A stretch of DNA of 38,526 nt from contig JASEHI010000019.1 of assembly GCA_030018695.1 (NCBI GenBank), positions 1-38,526 on the forward strand, given 5' to 3'. A model generated the notes under the pieces. The model worked only from the letters and a program-made list of their open reading frames with translations, did not search any database and was not told the DNA's origin. A program made the position numbers and the translations under genes. The stretch is from Anaerolineales bacterium. GTDB lineage: Bacteria > Chloroflexota > Anaerolineae > Anaerolineales > Villigracilaceae. Shown in pieces: positions 33,082 to 38,512 of this stretch; position 1 is the first letter of the stretch; every line of letters begins with the position of its first letter.

Positions 33082-33119
33082 CACTTTTGAAACCAAATGT
33101 CAAGTATGTGAGGACAAAC

Positions 33120-34805
33120 ATGAAAACCTATCGCTGGATCATTCTCGGCATCCTCGGCCTGCCCCTGCTGGCTATCGGCGCCTTCTTCTGGGCGACGAAT
33201 CTGATGGCGGATGCCCAGGCCTACCGCTCCCCGCTGGCCGATACCCCGCCCGCGCCCGGCGAAGCATTGGGCAGTCCGCTCAGCCGCCGCGTCGTCATCG
33301 TTTTGATTGACGCCCTGCGCTACGACACCTCGCTCAAGCCCGAAGTGATGCCCTTCCTGAACGAACTGCGGACGCAGGCTGCCGCCGCCACGATGCACAG
33401 CCGGCCGCCGTCATTCTCCGCCCCCGGCTGGAATACCATCCTCAGCGGCGCCTGGCCGGAGATCAACGACAGCCAGCCCTTCAACCCGCCCGATTTCGAC
33501 CACGTCCGAGCCTTCACGCAGGATGATATCTTCGCCGCCGCCGAGCGCGCCGGCCTGCGCGCCGCCGTCTCCGGTTACGCCTGGTTTGAGGGGATGCTGC
33601 TCAATAGCGGGGTGGATGCCGGATTCTACACTCGCGGTGAAGACGCCGCCGCTGACCGCCTGGTTGTGGACGCCGCCCTGCCCTGGCTGACCGAAAATTA
33701 CCAACTTATCCTCATCCACATTGACCAGGTGGATTATGCCGGACATCACGAGGGCGGCCCGCGCGACCCGCGCTGGGATGCCGCAGCCCGGCGCGCCGAC
33801 GCCCTCCTGGGCGAAATCGTCTCACACCTGGACCTCGAACAGGATACCGTTATCCTACTCTCCGACCACGGGCAGATCGAGCGCGGCGGGCACGGCGGGC
33901 CTGAGCCGGTCACGCTGGTCGAGCCGTTCGTGCTGGCCGGAGCCGGTGCGGTTCCCGGCAATTATGGCGACGTCAACATGGTGGATGTCGCACCGACCGT
34001 CGCCATTCTGTTGGGAACCAGCATCCCCGCCAGCAACCAGGGTCACGCGCTGACGGATATGCTTACTCTTTCGCCGGAGCAGGAGCCGGCCATCCAGGAG
34101 GCTCTGAAAGTGCAGCAAGGTCAATTGTTCGCCGCGTACACAACGGCGATCCATTCGACTGCCAGGATAGAGAGCGGAGAAGTGGTTTCGGCCACGCAGG
34201 CCGCAATGGAACAGGCGCGCGCCGGCCGGCTGGGTCGTGAACGCGTCTGGCGCAACGTGCTGGCTGCTTTCCTGGCCTTCACCCCGGCCTACCTGTTCTA
34301 TCTTCGCAAGGACAGGAAAGTGCTCTGGCTGGCGGCCGGCGCGCTGTTCTATCTGGCGATCTTCAACTTCCGCTACGCAATCCTGGACGGGCGCAGCTAC
34401 TCGCTGGCTTCGGTCGAAGGCGAGACGTGGCTGATCGTCTACACCGCGACGACTGCCGCGGTCGGCGTCATCCTCGGCTGGTTCATCCCGATGATCGGGC
34501 TGCGCGCCTTCCGCCGGAGTCCGCGCGCAGCCGCAGAGATTTCGCTCGGCTATGTCTGGTTCACGCTTTACCTGCTGGCGCTGCCCGTCCTGCTCAGTTT
34601 CGCCCTCAACGGCGTCACCGTCACCTGGACGCTGCCGGAATTCTACACGCTGTATATTGGATTGTTGTCCATCATCCAGAGTCTGATCGTGGCGGCCGTT
34701 GGGTTGCTGTTGGTCGGAGCCAGCGCATCTGTGGGACAAATCTATAGATTTGTCCTACGCAGATTTGTCCTACACAGATTTGTCCCACCAGAAACCAATG
34801 ACTGA
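33120..34805 (+). CDS. Membrane-anchored alkaline-phosphatase-superfamily hydrolase
   Basis: A 561-residue protein with an N-terminal membrane helix (about 6-28). Its catalytic domain (about 55-350) belongs to the phosphodiesterase/nucleotide-pyrophosphatase branch. Metal ligands are visible in VVIVLIDALRYD, HIDQVDYAGHHEGG, LLSDHGQIERGGHGG and the nucleophile region SFSAPGWNT. Four or five more hydrophobic helices follow (about 385-540). The topology resembles GPI-ethanolamine-phosphate transferases; a role on lipid or glycan headgroups is possible but unproven. AGGA precedes ATG 33120. The last 20 residues, with the RFVLR-RFVLH-RFVPP triplication, are encoded by REP-like repeats, and the stop lies 8 bases inside the transposase gene. 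Confidence 0.85.
   Translation: MKTYRWIILGILGLPLLAIGAFFWATNLMADAQAYRSPLADTPPAPGEALGSPLSRRVVIVLIDALRYDTSLKPEVMPFLNELRTQAAAATMHSRPPSFSAPGWNTILSGAWPEINDSQPFNPPDFDHVRAFTQDDIFAAAERAGLRAAVSGYAWFEGMLLNSGVDAGFYTRGEDAAADRLVVDAALPWLTENYQLILIHIDQVDYAGHHEGGPRDPRWDAAARRADALLGEIVSHLDLEQDTVILLSDHGQIERGGHGGPEPVTLVEPFVLAGAGAVPGNYGDVNMVDVAPTVAILLGTSIPASNQGHALTDMLTLSPEQEPAIQEALKVQQGQLFAAYTTAIHSTARIESGEVVSATQAAMEQARAGRLGRERVWRNVLAAFLAFTPAYLFYLRKDRKVLWLAAGALFYLAIFNFRYAILDGRSYSLASVEGETWLIVYTATTAAVGVILGWFIPMIGLRAFRRSPRAAAEISLGYVWFTLYLLALPVLLSFALNGVTVTWTLPEFYTLYIGLLSIIQSLIVAAVGLLLVGASASVGQIYRFVLRRFVLHRFVPPETND
34731..34788 (-). repeat. REP-like cluster left of the transposase gene
   Basis: A perfect 22-bp palindrome (arms GGACAAATCTA, 34734-34755) is flanked by GTGG/GTAG feet and followed by two further half-arms with feet at 34761-34773 and 34776-34788. 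On the minus strand this reads two GTRG half-arms, then the full palindrome. It is translated as the C-terminus of the phosphatase-like protein. Confidence 0.9.
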
Positions 34806-35442
34806 AATTTTCTATCGCAACCTGCCGCACTACCACCCACTCAACGCCACTTACTTCATCACATTTCGGCTGGCGGGAAGTTTACCGCTCGATGCGCTGG
34901 CACGTATGCGGCAGGATTATGAACAGCAGGAACACTTGCTGACAGCGCGTTTGCAAGGACAGGAATTGTATGAGGAGCGCTACAAACTCCAGAAGAAATT
35001 TTTCGCGCAGTATGATAAGATGCTCGATGCAGCTGAACACGGTCCCCGCTGGCTGGCGGAACCGCGCTTTGCTGAAATCGTTGTCGGCACCATCCACGCC
35101 CTGCATCCGGAACACTATTCCTTGCACGCTTACTGCATCATGAGCAATCACGTCCACCTGCTGATTGACCAGCAAGGCATCCCTGAACCGAAGCCTTTGA
35201 AAGACGGACAACACTACACGGCACTCAGCCACGCCATGCGCCGGCTCAAAGGGCGAACCGGGTACGCTTGCGCCAAACTCCTGGGTAAGAAAGGCGCTTT
35301 CTGGCAGCACGAAAGTTACGACCATGTGGTTCGGAATGAAAAGGAGTTCGAGCGCATTCTCGCGTATATCATCAACAATCCAGTCAAAGCCGGGTTGGTC
35401 AACGATTGGCAAGATTGGCCCTACACGTATGTGGCACATTAG
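34798..35442 (+). CDS. REP-associated tyrosine transposase (RAYT, Y1/HUH family)
   Basis: A 214-residue single-strand DNA transposase of the IS200-like Y1 family. The HUH pair is His118-Val-His120 in CIMSNHVHLLI. The catalytic tyrosine is probably Tyr174 in WQHESYDHVVR, followed by the family's C-terminal EKEFERILAYIINNPVKAGLV. The N-terminal YHPLNATYFITFRLAGSLP strand is typical of RAYTs. ATG 34798 lies inside the stop region of the upstream gene (8-base overlap), with no Shine-Dalgarno, so translation may be coupled. The TAG stop shares its G with the first base of the right palindrome. RAYTs spread short REP hairpins by acting at their GTAG-type foot; the adjacent hairpins carry that foot. 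Confidence 0.93.
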   Translation: MTEIFYRNLPHYHPLNATYFITFRLAGSLPLDALARMRQDYEQQEHLLTARLQGQELYEERYKLQKKFFAQYDKMLDAAEHGPRWLAEPRFAEIVVGTIHALHPEHYSLHAYCIMSNHVHLLIDQQGIPEPKPLKDGQHYTALSHAMRRLKGRTGYACAKLLGKKGAFWQHESYDHVVRNEKEFERILAYIINNPVKAGLVNDWQDWPYTYVAH

Positions 35443-35479
35443 GACAAGTCTATAGACTTGTCCCACAGACTTGTTCTAC
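35442..35479 (-). repeat. REP-like cluster right of the transposase gene
   Basis: A perfect 22-bp palindrome (arms GGACAAGTCTA, 35442-35463) is followed by one half-arm with a GTAG foot (35467-35479, one mismatch). The arm differs from the left cluster at one position, changed in both strands of the stem. It ends at the AGGAAAG ribosome-binding site of the next gene. Confidence 0.9.
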
Positions 35480-35494
35480 AGGAAAGCGAAAACC

Positions 35495-38400
35495 ATGGTT
35501 ATTTCCCTCATCATCAACGGCATTTCCCACACTTTCGATTGTCCCCCCTCCGAATCCCTCCTCTCCGCCCTGCGCCGACTCGGCTTCCACGGCGTCAAGT
35601 TTGGCGATGAGCATGGATTAACTGGCGCGGACACCATCCTGCTGGACGGCAAGCCGGTCAACTCTGGACTGATGCTGGCTGCGCAAGCCGAGGGACACGC
35701 CATCGTCACCATCGAAGGACTCGGCGTATTCCCCGACCAGGGCTGGAAGAAGACCGAGGGCTTGCATCCATTACAACAGGCCTTCATCGAGACCGGCGCC
35801 ATCCAGTGCGGCTACTGCACCCCGGCGCAAATCCTGGCGGCGAAAGCGCTGCTGGATAAGACGCCCGATCCCACCGAGGCCGAAGTTCGAGAGGCGATTG
35901 CCGGTGTTTTATGTCGTTGTACTGGCTACGCGAAGCCAGTGCAGGCGGTGTTGCGGGCGGCGGCGGTTCTAAGAGGCGAAGTAATCAGTAATCAGTTTTC
36001 AGTAATCAGTGGTTTTCCGGTTGAGCCCATACCACCGCCCGATAATGAACTGATTACTGATCACGGGCCACTGATCACTACAAAAGTTGCGCCAAAGATC
36101 CTTGTCGCGCCGGAAACGCAGAAATGGCAAACCGTCGGCAAGCCAGAGCCAAAAGTGGACGCGATCAAACTGGCGCAAGGCAAGCCGGCCTTCGCCGCGG
36201 ATATCGAGATGCGCGGGATGCTGCACGCCAAAATCCTGCACTCGCCGCACGCCCATGGCCGCATCAAGAAGATTGACGCCTCGAAAGCCCGCGCCCTGCC
36301 GGGCGTGGCGGCGGTGCTGACCTGGCAGGATATCCCCCGCGTGGTCTATTCCACCGCCGGTCAATCCGACCCCATCCCCGGCCCACTGGATAGTTTTTCG
36401 CTGGATAACAAAGTGCGTTTCGTCGGCGACCGCGTGGCTTTTGTTGCCGCCGAAACGCCCGAAATCGCCGAACAAGCCCTGCGCCTGATTGATGTGGAAT
36501 ACGAAATCCTGCCTGCCGTGCTGGATATGGCAGATGCAATGAAACCCGGCGCGCCCATCCTGCACGACGAACCGGAGTACGTCCCGTTCGCGGTCTGCGA
36601 CCCGGCCAAAAACCTGGCTGCCGAGATCCGCATTGACATCGGCAGCGTGGACAAGGGCTTCGCCGCAGCGGACGAGATCTTCGAGGCCGAGTACGTCGTG
36701 CCAAAAGTACAGCAGGCGCACATCGAGCCGCACGTCGCGCTGACGTATTGGGACGAAGATGACCGCCTGGTCATCCGCAGCAGCACCCAGGTCCCGTTCC
36801 ACGTCCGGCGGATGCTCGCGCCGCTGCTGGGACTGCCGGTCAAGCGCATCCGCGTCATCAAGCCGCGCATCGGCGGGGGGTTCGGGGGCAAGCAGGAGGT
36901 GCTGATCGAAGACGTGGCTGCCCACCTGACCATCGCCACCGGCCGGCCGGTGCTGTTCGAGTACAGCCGCGAGGAAGAGTTCACCGCCTCCCGCTCGCGC
37001 CACCCGATGCGCATCTGGATGAAGACCGGCGTCAAGCGGGATGGCGCCATCACCGCCAACGAGATGCGCGTTTTGTCAGATACCGGCGCGTACGGCTGCC
37101 ACGCCCTGACCGTGACCGGCAACACCGGACACAAATCCATGGCGCTGTACGTGGGTGACGACGAATACCGCAAGTCGCCCAACATCCGTTTTTATGCGGA
37201 TGTGGTTTATACCAATCATGTGCCAGCCGGGGCCTATCGCGGCTACGGCGTGCCGCAGGGTTACTGGGCTGTCGAGCGTCACATGGAAAAGATCGCCCGC
37301 GCCCTCGCTCTCGACCCACTCGAATTCCGCCTGAAGAACGCCATCCGCCCGGGCGAGTACCACCCATTCAGCACCGCCTGGAACGAAGGCCGCGAACCGA
37401 GGCCGGAGATCATCCACACGGTTGGGTTGGAAGAATGTGTCCGGCAGGGGAAAGCCGCGATTGGGTGGGATGAGAAGTTCGGGAATGAGGAATGGCGCGC
37501 CGGACGGTTGACCATAGACCGCGGACCGTCCACCGTCCACCGTCCTCGGGCTGCCCGCAAGGGCATCGGCGTCGCAATGGTCATGCAAGGCACAGCCATC
37601 CCATACCTTGATATGGGTGGGGCTTCGCTAAAAATGAATGACGACGGCTCGTTCAACCTGCTCGTCGGCGCGACGGACCTGGGCACCGGTTCCGACACCG
37701 TCCTGGCGCAGATGGCGGCCGAGGTACTGGGCATTCCGACCGAGGACATCCTGGTCCATTCGTCCGATACTGATTTCACCCCATTCGACAAAGGCGCGTA
37801 TGCCTCGTCTACCACCTATATCTCCGGCGCGGCGGTGGTCAAGGCGGCCCAGCAATGCGCCGAACGCATCAAACTGCGCGCCGCCAAAATGCTCACTGAA
37901 CGTTTCAACGTTCAAACGTTTGAACGTTCGAACGTTAGACTGGCTGACCGCAAAGTCACTGGCCCTGACGGCAGTTTCGTGACACTGGCTGAAGTTGCCC
38001 TGAATGCCCTGCATCACAGCGACCAGGAACAGATCATGGCCGTATCGTCCTATGTCTCACCAGTCTCGCCCCCGCCGTTTGCCGCCCAGTTCGCCGAGGT
38101 GACCGTGGACACCGAGACCGGCGCGGTGACGGTGGACAAACTGGTCATGGCGGTGGATAGCGGCGTCATCGTCAACCCGCAGACCGCCTCCGGCCAGATT
38201 GAAGGCGGCATGACGCAGGCGCTCGGTTACGCCGTCTGCGAGGAAATGGTGTATGATGAAAAAGGTGTCGCCCGCGAGCGCGACTTCGCCAACTATCACA
38301 TCTTCCGCGCCGATGAGATGCCCGAACTGACGACCATCTTCGTCGAGACCTTCGAGCCGAGCCACCCGTTTGGGGTCAAGGCTGTGGCCGAGATCCCGAT

Positions 38401-38512
38401 GGATGGGGTTGCGCCTGCGGTGGGAAATGCGATACTGGATGCAGTTGGAGTGAATATTGACGAAAATCCGGTCACGCCGGAGAAGGTGTGGAAGACGCTA
38501 AAAAAGCGGTAG
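35495..38512 (+). CDS. XdhD-like fused molybdenum hydroxylase ([2Fe-2S] plus Mo-binding subunit)
   Basis: A 1005-residue fusion related to xanthine dehydrogenases. Residues 1-160 form the iron-sulfur part. The second cluster ligands are intact (Cys105, Cys108, Cys140, Cys142 in IQCGYC and LCRCTGY), but the first, plant-type cluster has lost all four: Asp38, Thr43, Asp46 and Gly58. Residues of about 200-1005 form the molybdopterin part, with IGGGFGGKQEV, AGAYRGYGVPQG and the catalytic Glu in GVKAVAEIPMDG. No FAD subunit is fused. E. coli XdhD, from memory, has similar losses. Substrate unknown; a purine or aldehyde is possible. AGGAAAG precedes the ATG. Three in-frame microrepeat insertions lie at residues 162-195, 672-684 and 801-815. 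Confidence 0.9.
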   Translation: MVISLIINGISHTFDCPPSESLLSALRRLGFHGVKFGDEHGLTGADTILLDGKPVNSGLMLAAQAEGHAIVTIEGLGVFPDQGWKKTEGLHPLQQAFIETGAIQCGYCTPAQILAAKALLDKTPDPTEAEVREAIAGVLCRCTGYAKPVQAVLRAAAVLRGEVISNQFSVISGFPVEPIPPPDNELITDHGPLITTKVAPKILVAPETQKWQTVGKPEPKVDAIKLAQGKPAFAADIEMRGMLHAKILHSPHAHGRIKKIDASKARALPGVAAVLTWQDIPRVVYSTAGQSDPIPGPLDSFSLDNKVRFVGDRVAFVAAETPEIAEQALRLIDVEYEILPAVLDMADAMKPGAPILHDEPEYVPFAVCDPAKNLAAEIRIDIGSVDKGFAAADEIFEAEYVVPKVQQAHIEPHVALTYWDEDDRLVIRSSTQVPFHVRRMLAPLLGLPVKRIRVIKPRIGGGFGGKQEVLIEDVAAHLTIATGRPVLFEYSREEEFTASRSRHPMRIWMKTGVKRDGAITANEMRVLSDTGAYGCHALTVTGNTGHKSMALYVGDDEYRKSPNIRFYADVVYTNHVPAGAYRGYGVPQGYWAVERHMEKIARALALDPLEFRLKNAIRPGEYHPFSTAWNEGREPRPEIIHTVGLEECVRQGKAAIGWDEKFGNEEWRAGRLTIDRGPSTVHRPRAARKGIGVAMVMQGTAIPYLDMGGASLKMNDDGSFNLLVGATDLGTGSDTVLAQMAAEVLGIPTEDILVHSSDTDFTPFDKGAYASSTTYISGAAVVKAAQQCAERIKLRAAKMLTERFNVQTFERSNVRLADRKVTGPDGSFVTLAEVALNALHHSDQEQIMAVSSYVSPVSPPPFAAQFAEVTVDTETGAVTVDKLVMAVDSGVIVNPQTASGQIEGGMTQALGYAVCEEMVYDEKGVARERDFANYHIFRADEMPELTTIFVETFEPSHPFGVKAVAEIPMDGVAPAVGNAILDAVGVNIDENPVTPEKVWKTLKKR
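35981..36077. repeat. Inverted pair of heptamer tracts in the linker of the molybdenum hydroxylase gene
   Basis: Four heptamers of GTAATCA type (35981-36008, one degenerate) are followed after 41 bases by four of the opposite orientation, CTGATTA/CTGATCA (36050-36077, one degenerate). They encode the linker between the Fe-S and Mo domains (ISNQFSVIS, then ELITDHGPLIT). Confidence 0.85.
37510..37544. repeat. Heptamer tract (ACCGTC type) inside the molybdenum hydroxylase gene
   Basis: Five in-register heptamers (GACCATA, GACCGCG, GACCGTC, CACCGTC, CACCGTC) encode TIDRGPSTVHR in the Mo domain. Length 35 bases; the reading frame is preserved. Confidence 0.75.
37899..37936. repeat. Octamer tract (AACGTTNN) x5 inside the molybdenum hydroxylase gene
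   Basis: AACGTT recurs exactly every eight bases at 37899, 37907, 37915, 37923 and 37931. It encodes ERFNVQTFERSNVR in the Mo domain. The core hexamer is itself palindromic. Confidence 0.85.

Follow-up and report, generated by a model that had tools for sequence, protein, structure and literature searches.

A probable subclass 2.4 REPtron in an Anaerolineales bacterium: a recently exchanged RAYT cassette and a REP carried by an ISKra4-type MITE

REP-associated tyrosine transposases (RAYTs, or TnpAREP) of subclass 2.4 (Bertels group 4) carry the HUH motif NH[IFV]H, a WQ pair and the tyrosine motif YIxNNP; double-foot REPs of the form GT[AG]G...C[TC]AC lie on either side of the gene, and REP insertion inside the gene is typical (Quentin et al. 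2018, PMC6006769). The residues of TnpAREP that contact the GTAG foot are W94, Q95 and R104, with E100 and H101 (Quentin et al. 2018, PMC6006769). The TnpAREP-REP pairs of groups 2 and 3 in E. coli, S. maltophilia and Marinomonas (PMC8266576) resemble the system described here in their GTAG foot and hairpin, in the perfect palindromes of group 3, in the co-evolution of enzyme and REP and in the retention of the foot-contact residues, but their REPs have a foot on one side, whereas the present ones have a foot on both strands. No group 4/subclass 2.4 enzyme is among the pairs with tested activity in PMC8266576.

The window analyzed here is a stretch of 38,526 nt, contig JASEHI010000019.1 of an Anaerolineales bacterium (genome G000). 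A RAYT gene lies between two hairpin clusters at positions 34731-35479, exactly where a first-pass annotation of the DNA had placed them. By its motifs and REP type, the locus is most like a known kind, the double-foot REPtron of subclass 2.4, and we consider it probable that a domesticated HUH/Y1 transposase, present in single copy, is flanked here by double-foot REP hairpins of its own. It shares with subclass 2.4 REPtrons the motifs, the double-foot REPs on both sides, the few gene copies and a spread over several phyla; it differs in belonging to the Chloroflexota, in its half-arm stem arrays, in the carriage of its REP by an ISKra4-type MITE and in exchange at a shared site upstream of a xanthine-dehydrogenase-like (xdh) gene. 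The features of the locus are as follows.

33120..34805, plus strand: phosphatase-like membrane protein gene (probable ATG at 33120; the ORF opens at 33087)
34721..35505, no strand: tract near-identical to a cassette in genome G009 (WOUS01000002.1); boundaries approximate
34731..34758, minus strand: left double-foot REP palindrome (22-bp core 34734-34755; stem version A-T)
34761..34773, minus strand: half-arm GTAGGACAAATCT (direct repeat family D1, 15-nt spacing)
34776..34788, minus strand: half-arm GTGGGACAAATCT (all 13 nt complementary to the outer 3' arm, I2)
34798..35442, plus strand: RAYT/TnpAREP gene, 214 aa (ATG 34798, stop 35442; NCBIfam NF047646)
35439..35466, minus strand: right double-foot REP palindrome (22-bp core 35442-35463; stem version G-C; overlaps the RAYT stop codon)
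35467..35479, minus strand: half-arm GTAGAACAAGTCT
35495..38512, plus strand: xdh-like gene with N-terminal 2Fe-2S domain, starting 15 bp past the right half-arm

Read from the ATG at 34798, the protein matches NCBIfam NF047646 (REP-associated tyrosine transposase) at 80.3 bits against a cut-off of 80, and all 61 relatives match the same family at E <= 1e-3. The subclass 2.4 motifs are present as NHVH (residues 117-120), FWQ (WQ at 169-170) and YIINNP, which contains the predicted catalytic tyrosine Y190. A profile built from the 61 relatives had a single match in the PDB, the E. coli TnpAREP with its REP hairpin (4er8, 1.5e-9). The same structure was the best hit in a fold search (3.6e-8) with an AlphaFold2 model of the protein (pLDDT 89.8), followed by the IS200/IS605 transposases 2xm3 and 2vjv; in the model, a predicted loop occupies residues 125-141, between HUH and Y. 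The foot-contact residues W94, Q95, E100, H101 and R104 of TnpAREP align with W169, Q170, D175, H176 and R179 here, all invariant or more than 90% conserved across the alignment of 61 relatives.

The minus-strand sequence of the left cluster is GTGGGACAAATCT-GT-GTAGGACAAATCT-GC-GTAGGACAAATCTATAGATTTGTCCCAC from 34788 down to 34731, and that of the right cluster GTAGAACAAGTCT-GTGGGACAAGTCTATAGACTTGTCCTAA from 35479 down to 35439. Half-arms footed GTAG or GTGG (two on the left, one on the right) thus accompany a 22-bp palindrome in each cluster and both palindromes are perfect, as the first-pass annotation had described. Its view that the clusters share one orientation holds for the half-arms; compared by their feet, the two palindromes are inverted, with GTGG outermost at both ends. 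The left palindrome has GTAG on the minus and GTGG on the plus strand. Because the right one overlaps the stop codon of the RAYT, its inner foot is TTAG, so that the double foot is intact in the left palindrome and in most copies of the family, with one foot lost on the right. Both GT[AG]G-footed REPs (34731-34758 and 35439-35466) are within 1 kb of the gene. As single-stranded DNA, the two 28-nt palindromes fold with z = -5.4 (left) and -5.2 (right), and none of 200 shuffles was as stable. Since the single 3' arm can form a full 13-bp duplex with the outermost left half-arm, several hairpins compete in the left cluster. Chance hairpins were rejected as a source: a stem of at least 10 bp was reached in 0 of 156 base-shuffled flanks, compared to 69 of 156 real flanks. 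No Rfam RNA family matched within the window.

The draft assembly of the genome (2.86 Mb, 192 contigs) was screened by pattern searches, from which all genome-wide counts derive. It contains 24 palindromes at up to 3 mismatches (none with a reversed-pattern control), an approximate number because copies at contig ends may be collapsed repeats. REP copies elsewhere in the genome are thus present, as in other TnpAREP systems, and a purely local duplication, the outcome that the annotation had named as fatal to its proposal, is ruled out. Two of the 24 are at the RAYT, seven stand alone, 11 are in the MITE (partial and contig-end copies included) and four in a second repeat.

C13, C105, C115 (two), C118:17400, C172 and C182: stand-alone palindromes (7)

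We then searched 150 relative genomes with GGACAANTCTNNAGANTTGTCC, in which the variable pair and the centre were left free. Four or more copies were found in G000 (21), G009 (16), G016 (6), G033 (4) and G054 (4), with no hits for reversed-pattern controls. These are exactly the five genomes of the 150 with a RAYT at least 69% identical to ours (p = 1.7e-9, with genomes treated as independent, all five in one family and the copy threshold picked after the data were seen), a cognate association of RAYT and REP. Clusters of half-arm plus palindrome recur away from RAYT genes in G009 (L157, L167), G016 (L173, with two half-arms) and G033 (L177). In G054, one REP is within a 119-bp tandem duplication (L179:300-460, C9).

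The bias to GTAG at hairpin feet that had been proposed is also borne out: GTRG occupies 93 of the 110 feet in the fetched palindromes. The 55 palindromes include 19 with the foot pair GTAG/GTGG, 18 with GTAG/GTAG and 3 with GTGG/GTGG, and the pairs GTTG/GTTG and GCAG/GCAG have also changed together. At 35 RAYT loci spanning Chloroflexota, Bacteroidota, Planctomycetota, Poribacteria and others, the best hairpins of the two sides agree at 8.1 of 9 arm positions, compared to 4.6 with the loci permuted (0 of 10000 permutations).

The left and right stems differ by a single base pair (A-T versus G-C), matched on both strands, and each palindrome shares its variable base with the half-arms next to it. 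This matched change, in which the first-pass annotation had seen selection on the folded structure, is real and extends to the whole family: the free stem pair is complementary in 54 of the 55 fetched palindromes (G-C 41, A-T 6, T-A 4, C-G 3), where 59% would be expected from independence at the same base frequencies, and the single mismatched case is consistent with the right palindrome of the G009 cassette. Selection on the fold is not established by it, because recopying from another family copy or palindrome-templated replication errors would give the same pattern; covariation alone does not separate fold selection from recopying or from repair templated by the palindrome. Stems with A, G, T and C each form a sub-family found genome-wide, so that one of the two clusters may be a recopied version of another family member, and since the half-arms repeat the base of their palindrome, local copying does occur.

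The strongest rival explanation is accordingly that the palindromes are kept perfect by a mutational process, either template switching inside the hairpin at replication or gene conversion from other copies, and not by selection for RAYT recognition. The half-arms behave as local copying would predict, the stem versions are common genome-wide, and half-arm number shifts fast, from two left and one right in the G000 cassette to none left and two right in the near-identical G009 cassette. However, a purely mutational process predicts neither the retention of GTRG feet nor the conservation of the foot-contact residues, and complementarity holds across phyla with unrelated stem sequences. We therefore regard this rival as doubtful, if worth keeping in view; given the conserved feet and contact residues, selection for a recognizable hairpin is the simplest reading.

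For the REPtron, we propose the following sequence of events. The palindrome would extrude as a hairpin on single-stranded DNA during replication, and the RAYT would recognize the GTAG foot and stem, cut nearby via its tyrosine and rejoin the ends. REPs would thereby be recopied into a small dispersed family, with RAYT as the presumed mobilizing enzyme. The stem would drift, but each copy would remain complementary, and all copies of one genome would keep near the version adjoining their RAYT. The half-arms probably originated as partial duplications, through slippage or through cutting and rejoining at the apex of the hairpin. By a second route, an ISKra4-type MITE with one captured REP would have made about half of the genome's copies. 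With a modest copy number (24) and 15 of these palindromes in other repeats, the direct evidence for RAYT-driven copying in G000 comes from the seven stand-alone palindromes and from the four other genomes.

The MITE is an 80-bp element, GTGTGCACGCAAAGGTTGTCATCTGGAGCGC-[REP]-TGACATGGTTTGCGTGCACAC, which holds 11 of the 24 palindromes at the same junctions and, in complete copies, in one orientation. Complete copies are flanked by 8-bp target duplications, such as TTCAAGAC at C162 and TAAAATGT at C126, and the 21-nt terminal repeat GTGTGCACGCAAAGGTTGTCA recurs without change at each end of an IS in G001 that is 1.49 kb long and encodes a transposase of the ISKra4 family (NF033572, 226.7 against a cut-off of 205). 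The element thus has both the terminal repeats of a complete ISKra4-family IS and the target duplications of a MITE. The same or nearly the same ends enclose other insides in G000 (C186, C151), G005, G018 and G067; the two in G000 (L110, L111) have ISKra4-type ends around different inner inverted repeats and no REP. The simplest account is a single REP capture, followed by multiplication of the MITE. REP-TIR composites and TIRYT of Pseudomonas, where degenerate GTAG repeats fused to unrelated stem-loops have multiplied (Di Nocera et al. 2013, PMC3733652), are a related case; here, the host is an ISKra4-family MITE with 8-bp target duplications and the inner REP is intact.

Three MITE fragments consist of the right half only, beginning precisely at the REP's GTAG foot and preceded on the left by unrelated DNA (C155:700, L059:700-750; L166:340-390; L169:300-350). 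They could be a trace of cutting at the foot, a possibility built on three cases only. One MITE has its REP part doubled in tandem with a 40-nt period (L052:1810-1930, C117).

The second repeat, found on C15, C26, C104 and C109 (L095-L098), consists of CCTTCGCCAAAATTTGGCG, a REP with a T-A stem and CACAAGATACCG. Three of its four copies are at contig ends, which suggests that it is probably part of a longer identical repeat, perhaps another MITE. In total, 15 of the 24 palindromes (about 60%) are inside other repeats, chiefly the ISKra4 MITE, and the RAYT therefore did not place all copies. The first-pass annotation overlooked this: copies in the genome do not all report RAYT activity.

Another reading of these data is that the MITE is the main disperser here, with the RAYT either uninvolved or the source of one first copy. 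The common junctions and orientation of the 11 MITE-borne palindromes, the target duplications of the complete elements and the four further copies in the second repeat would all fit. But G016, G033 and G054 have stand-alone palindromes with no MITE sequence found around them, and copies track the RAYT rather than the IS: G001, G005, G018, G060, G130 and G146 have the terminal repeat and lack palindromes of this family. We consider this reading improbable, more so than maintenance by template switching or gene conversion.

The genome encodes a second RAYT (C137:63010-63651; L045, L064), 45-48% identical to that of the window. A different palindrome, GTAAGTCGAAATTAATTTCGACTTAC, is present at both ends of this gene and overlaps the end of its coding sequence. 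The same palindrome is found in G026, which has a close relative of this RAYT, and near-identical ones in G038. G003, with a 77% relative of the C137 RAYT, has no GTAAGTCGAAATTAATTTCGACTTAC palindrome at up to 2 mismatches, and copies are also present in genomes that have no close relative of this RAYT. The genome-wide link between the C137 RAYT and its putative cognate palindrome is thus weak.

The cassette in the window has a close counterpart in G009, a member of the Anaerolineaceae in another genus, which has the same locus order (phosphatase-like gene, RAYT, xdh). DNA identity to G009 (both genomes appear to be metagenome assemblies) is about 95-100% over the tract ~34721-35505, half-arm number apart, and mostly 50-90% on both sides; the RAYT gene itself is 97% identical to the copy at the same locus. 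At fourfold sites, the two genomes differ at 4 of 83 positions in the RAYT and at 95 of 240 and 186 of 464 positions in the neighbors (~40%), a contrast with p about 1e-10 and 5e-12, respectively. Nine xdh-linked RAYT loci give 35 other pairs, and in these the divergence of RAYT is similar to that of xdh. G044, from the genus of G009, has the two neighbors 16 bp apart, without RAYT or palindrome, and the cassette is also absent from G003, from the genus of the window. These comparisons point to a recent cassette exchange, the cassette being more recent than the DNA around it in the G000 lineage, the G009 lineage or both. An assembly artefact is an unlikely source, as each of the two contigs has diverged flanks of its own and the G009 contig is 451 kb long.

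Near-identity extends beyond the clusters, ~10 bp past the left one and ~20 bp past the right one, so ordinary recombination fits at least as well as precise insertion. RAYT-driven insertion, REP-guided exchange and ordinary homologous recombination cannot be told apart as the route, and no vehicle for the exchanged cassette was found among plasmids, phages and viral contigs. We raise only tentatively the idea that lineages can exchange a RAYT cassette and its REP clusters as one unit where a REP-flanked site is already resident, perhaps by RAYT-catalyzed or REP-guided strand exchange; if true, unit exchange of REPtrons would run against the current view that they do not transpose as a unit.

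The cassette is most improbably an ordinary IS200/IS605-family insertion sequence: it resembles one in its HUH/Y1 fold, hairpins at both ends and recent exchange between genera, but there is one copy per genome (no near-identical second copy exists here and the only other RAYT is 48% identical), the tyrosine motif is YIINNP instead of the Y...Q given for IS200 enzymes, neither neighboring gene is related to tnpB, and the hairpin disperses without the gene.

The cassette has also altered the gene to its left. The left REP cluster now supplies the last ~24 codons of the phosphatase-like gene (window 34721-34805), whose product ends in the REP-encoded QIYRFVLR... in G000 and G009, compared to ...GIGWLVSRWA* in the cassette-free G044. 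On the other side, the closest RAYTs (65-96% identity) are nearly all upstream of an xdh homologue, as judged from the eight best named loci, and in G033 and G054 the palindrome abuts the probable ribosome-binding site of that homologue. In several genera, the right hairpin (window 35439-35495; L193, L195, L197) falls within the xdh homologue's 5' leader, near its ribosome-binding site. An effect of the right hairpin on xdh expression is possible, judging from this position.

Globally, the known kind is confirmed and widened, and the parts worth following are the cassette exchange and the MITE carriage; with the shared position upstream of an xdh-like gene, the exchange and the carriage of 11 of the 24 palindromes are what this locus adds. 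A cassette far younger than its neighbors, at the same site in two genera, offers a concrete test case for REP spread and for the upkeep of a tamed transposase. Because an ISKra4 MITE can carry an intact REP, the context of the copies has to be checked before their number is taken as a measure of RAYT activity. Finally, the stem variants of this one REP family, with their complementarity intact, are ready substrates for the study of recognition in subclass 2.4.
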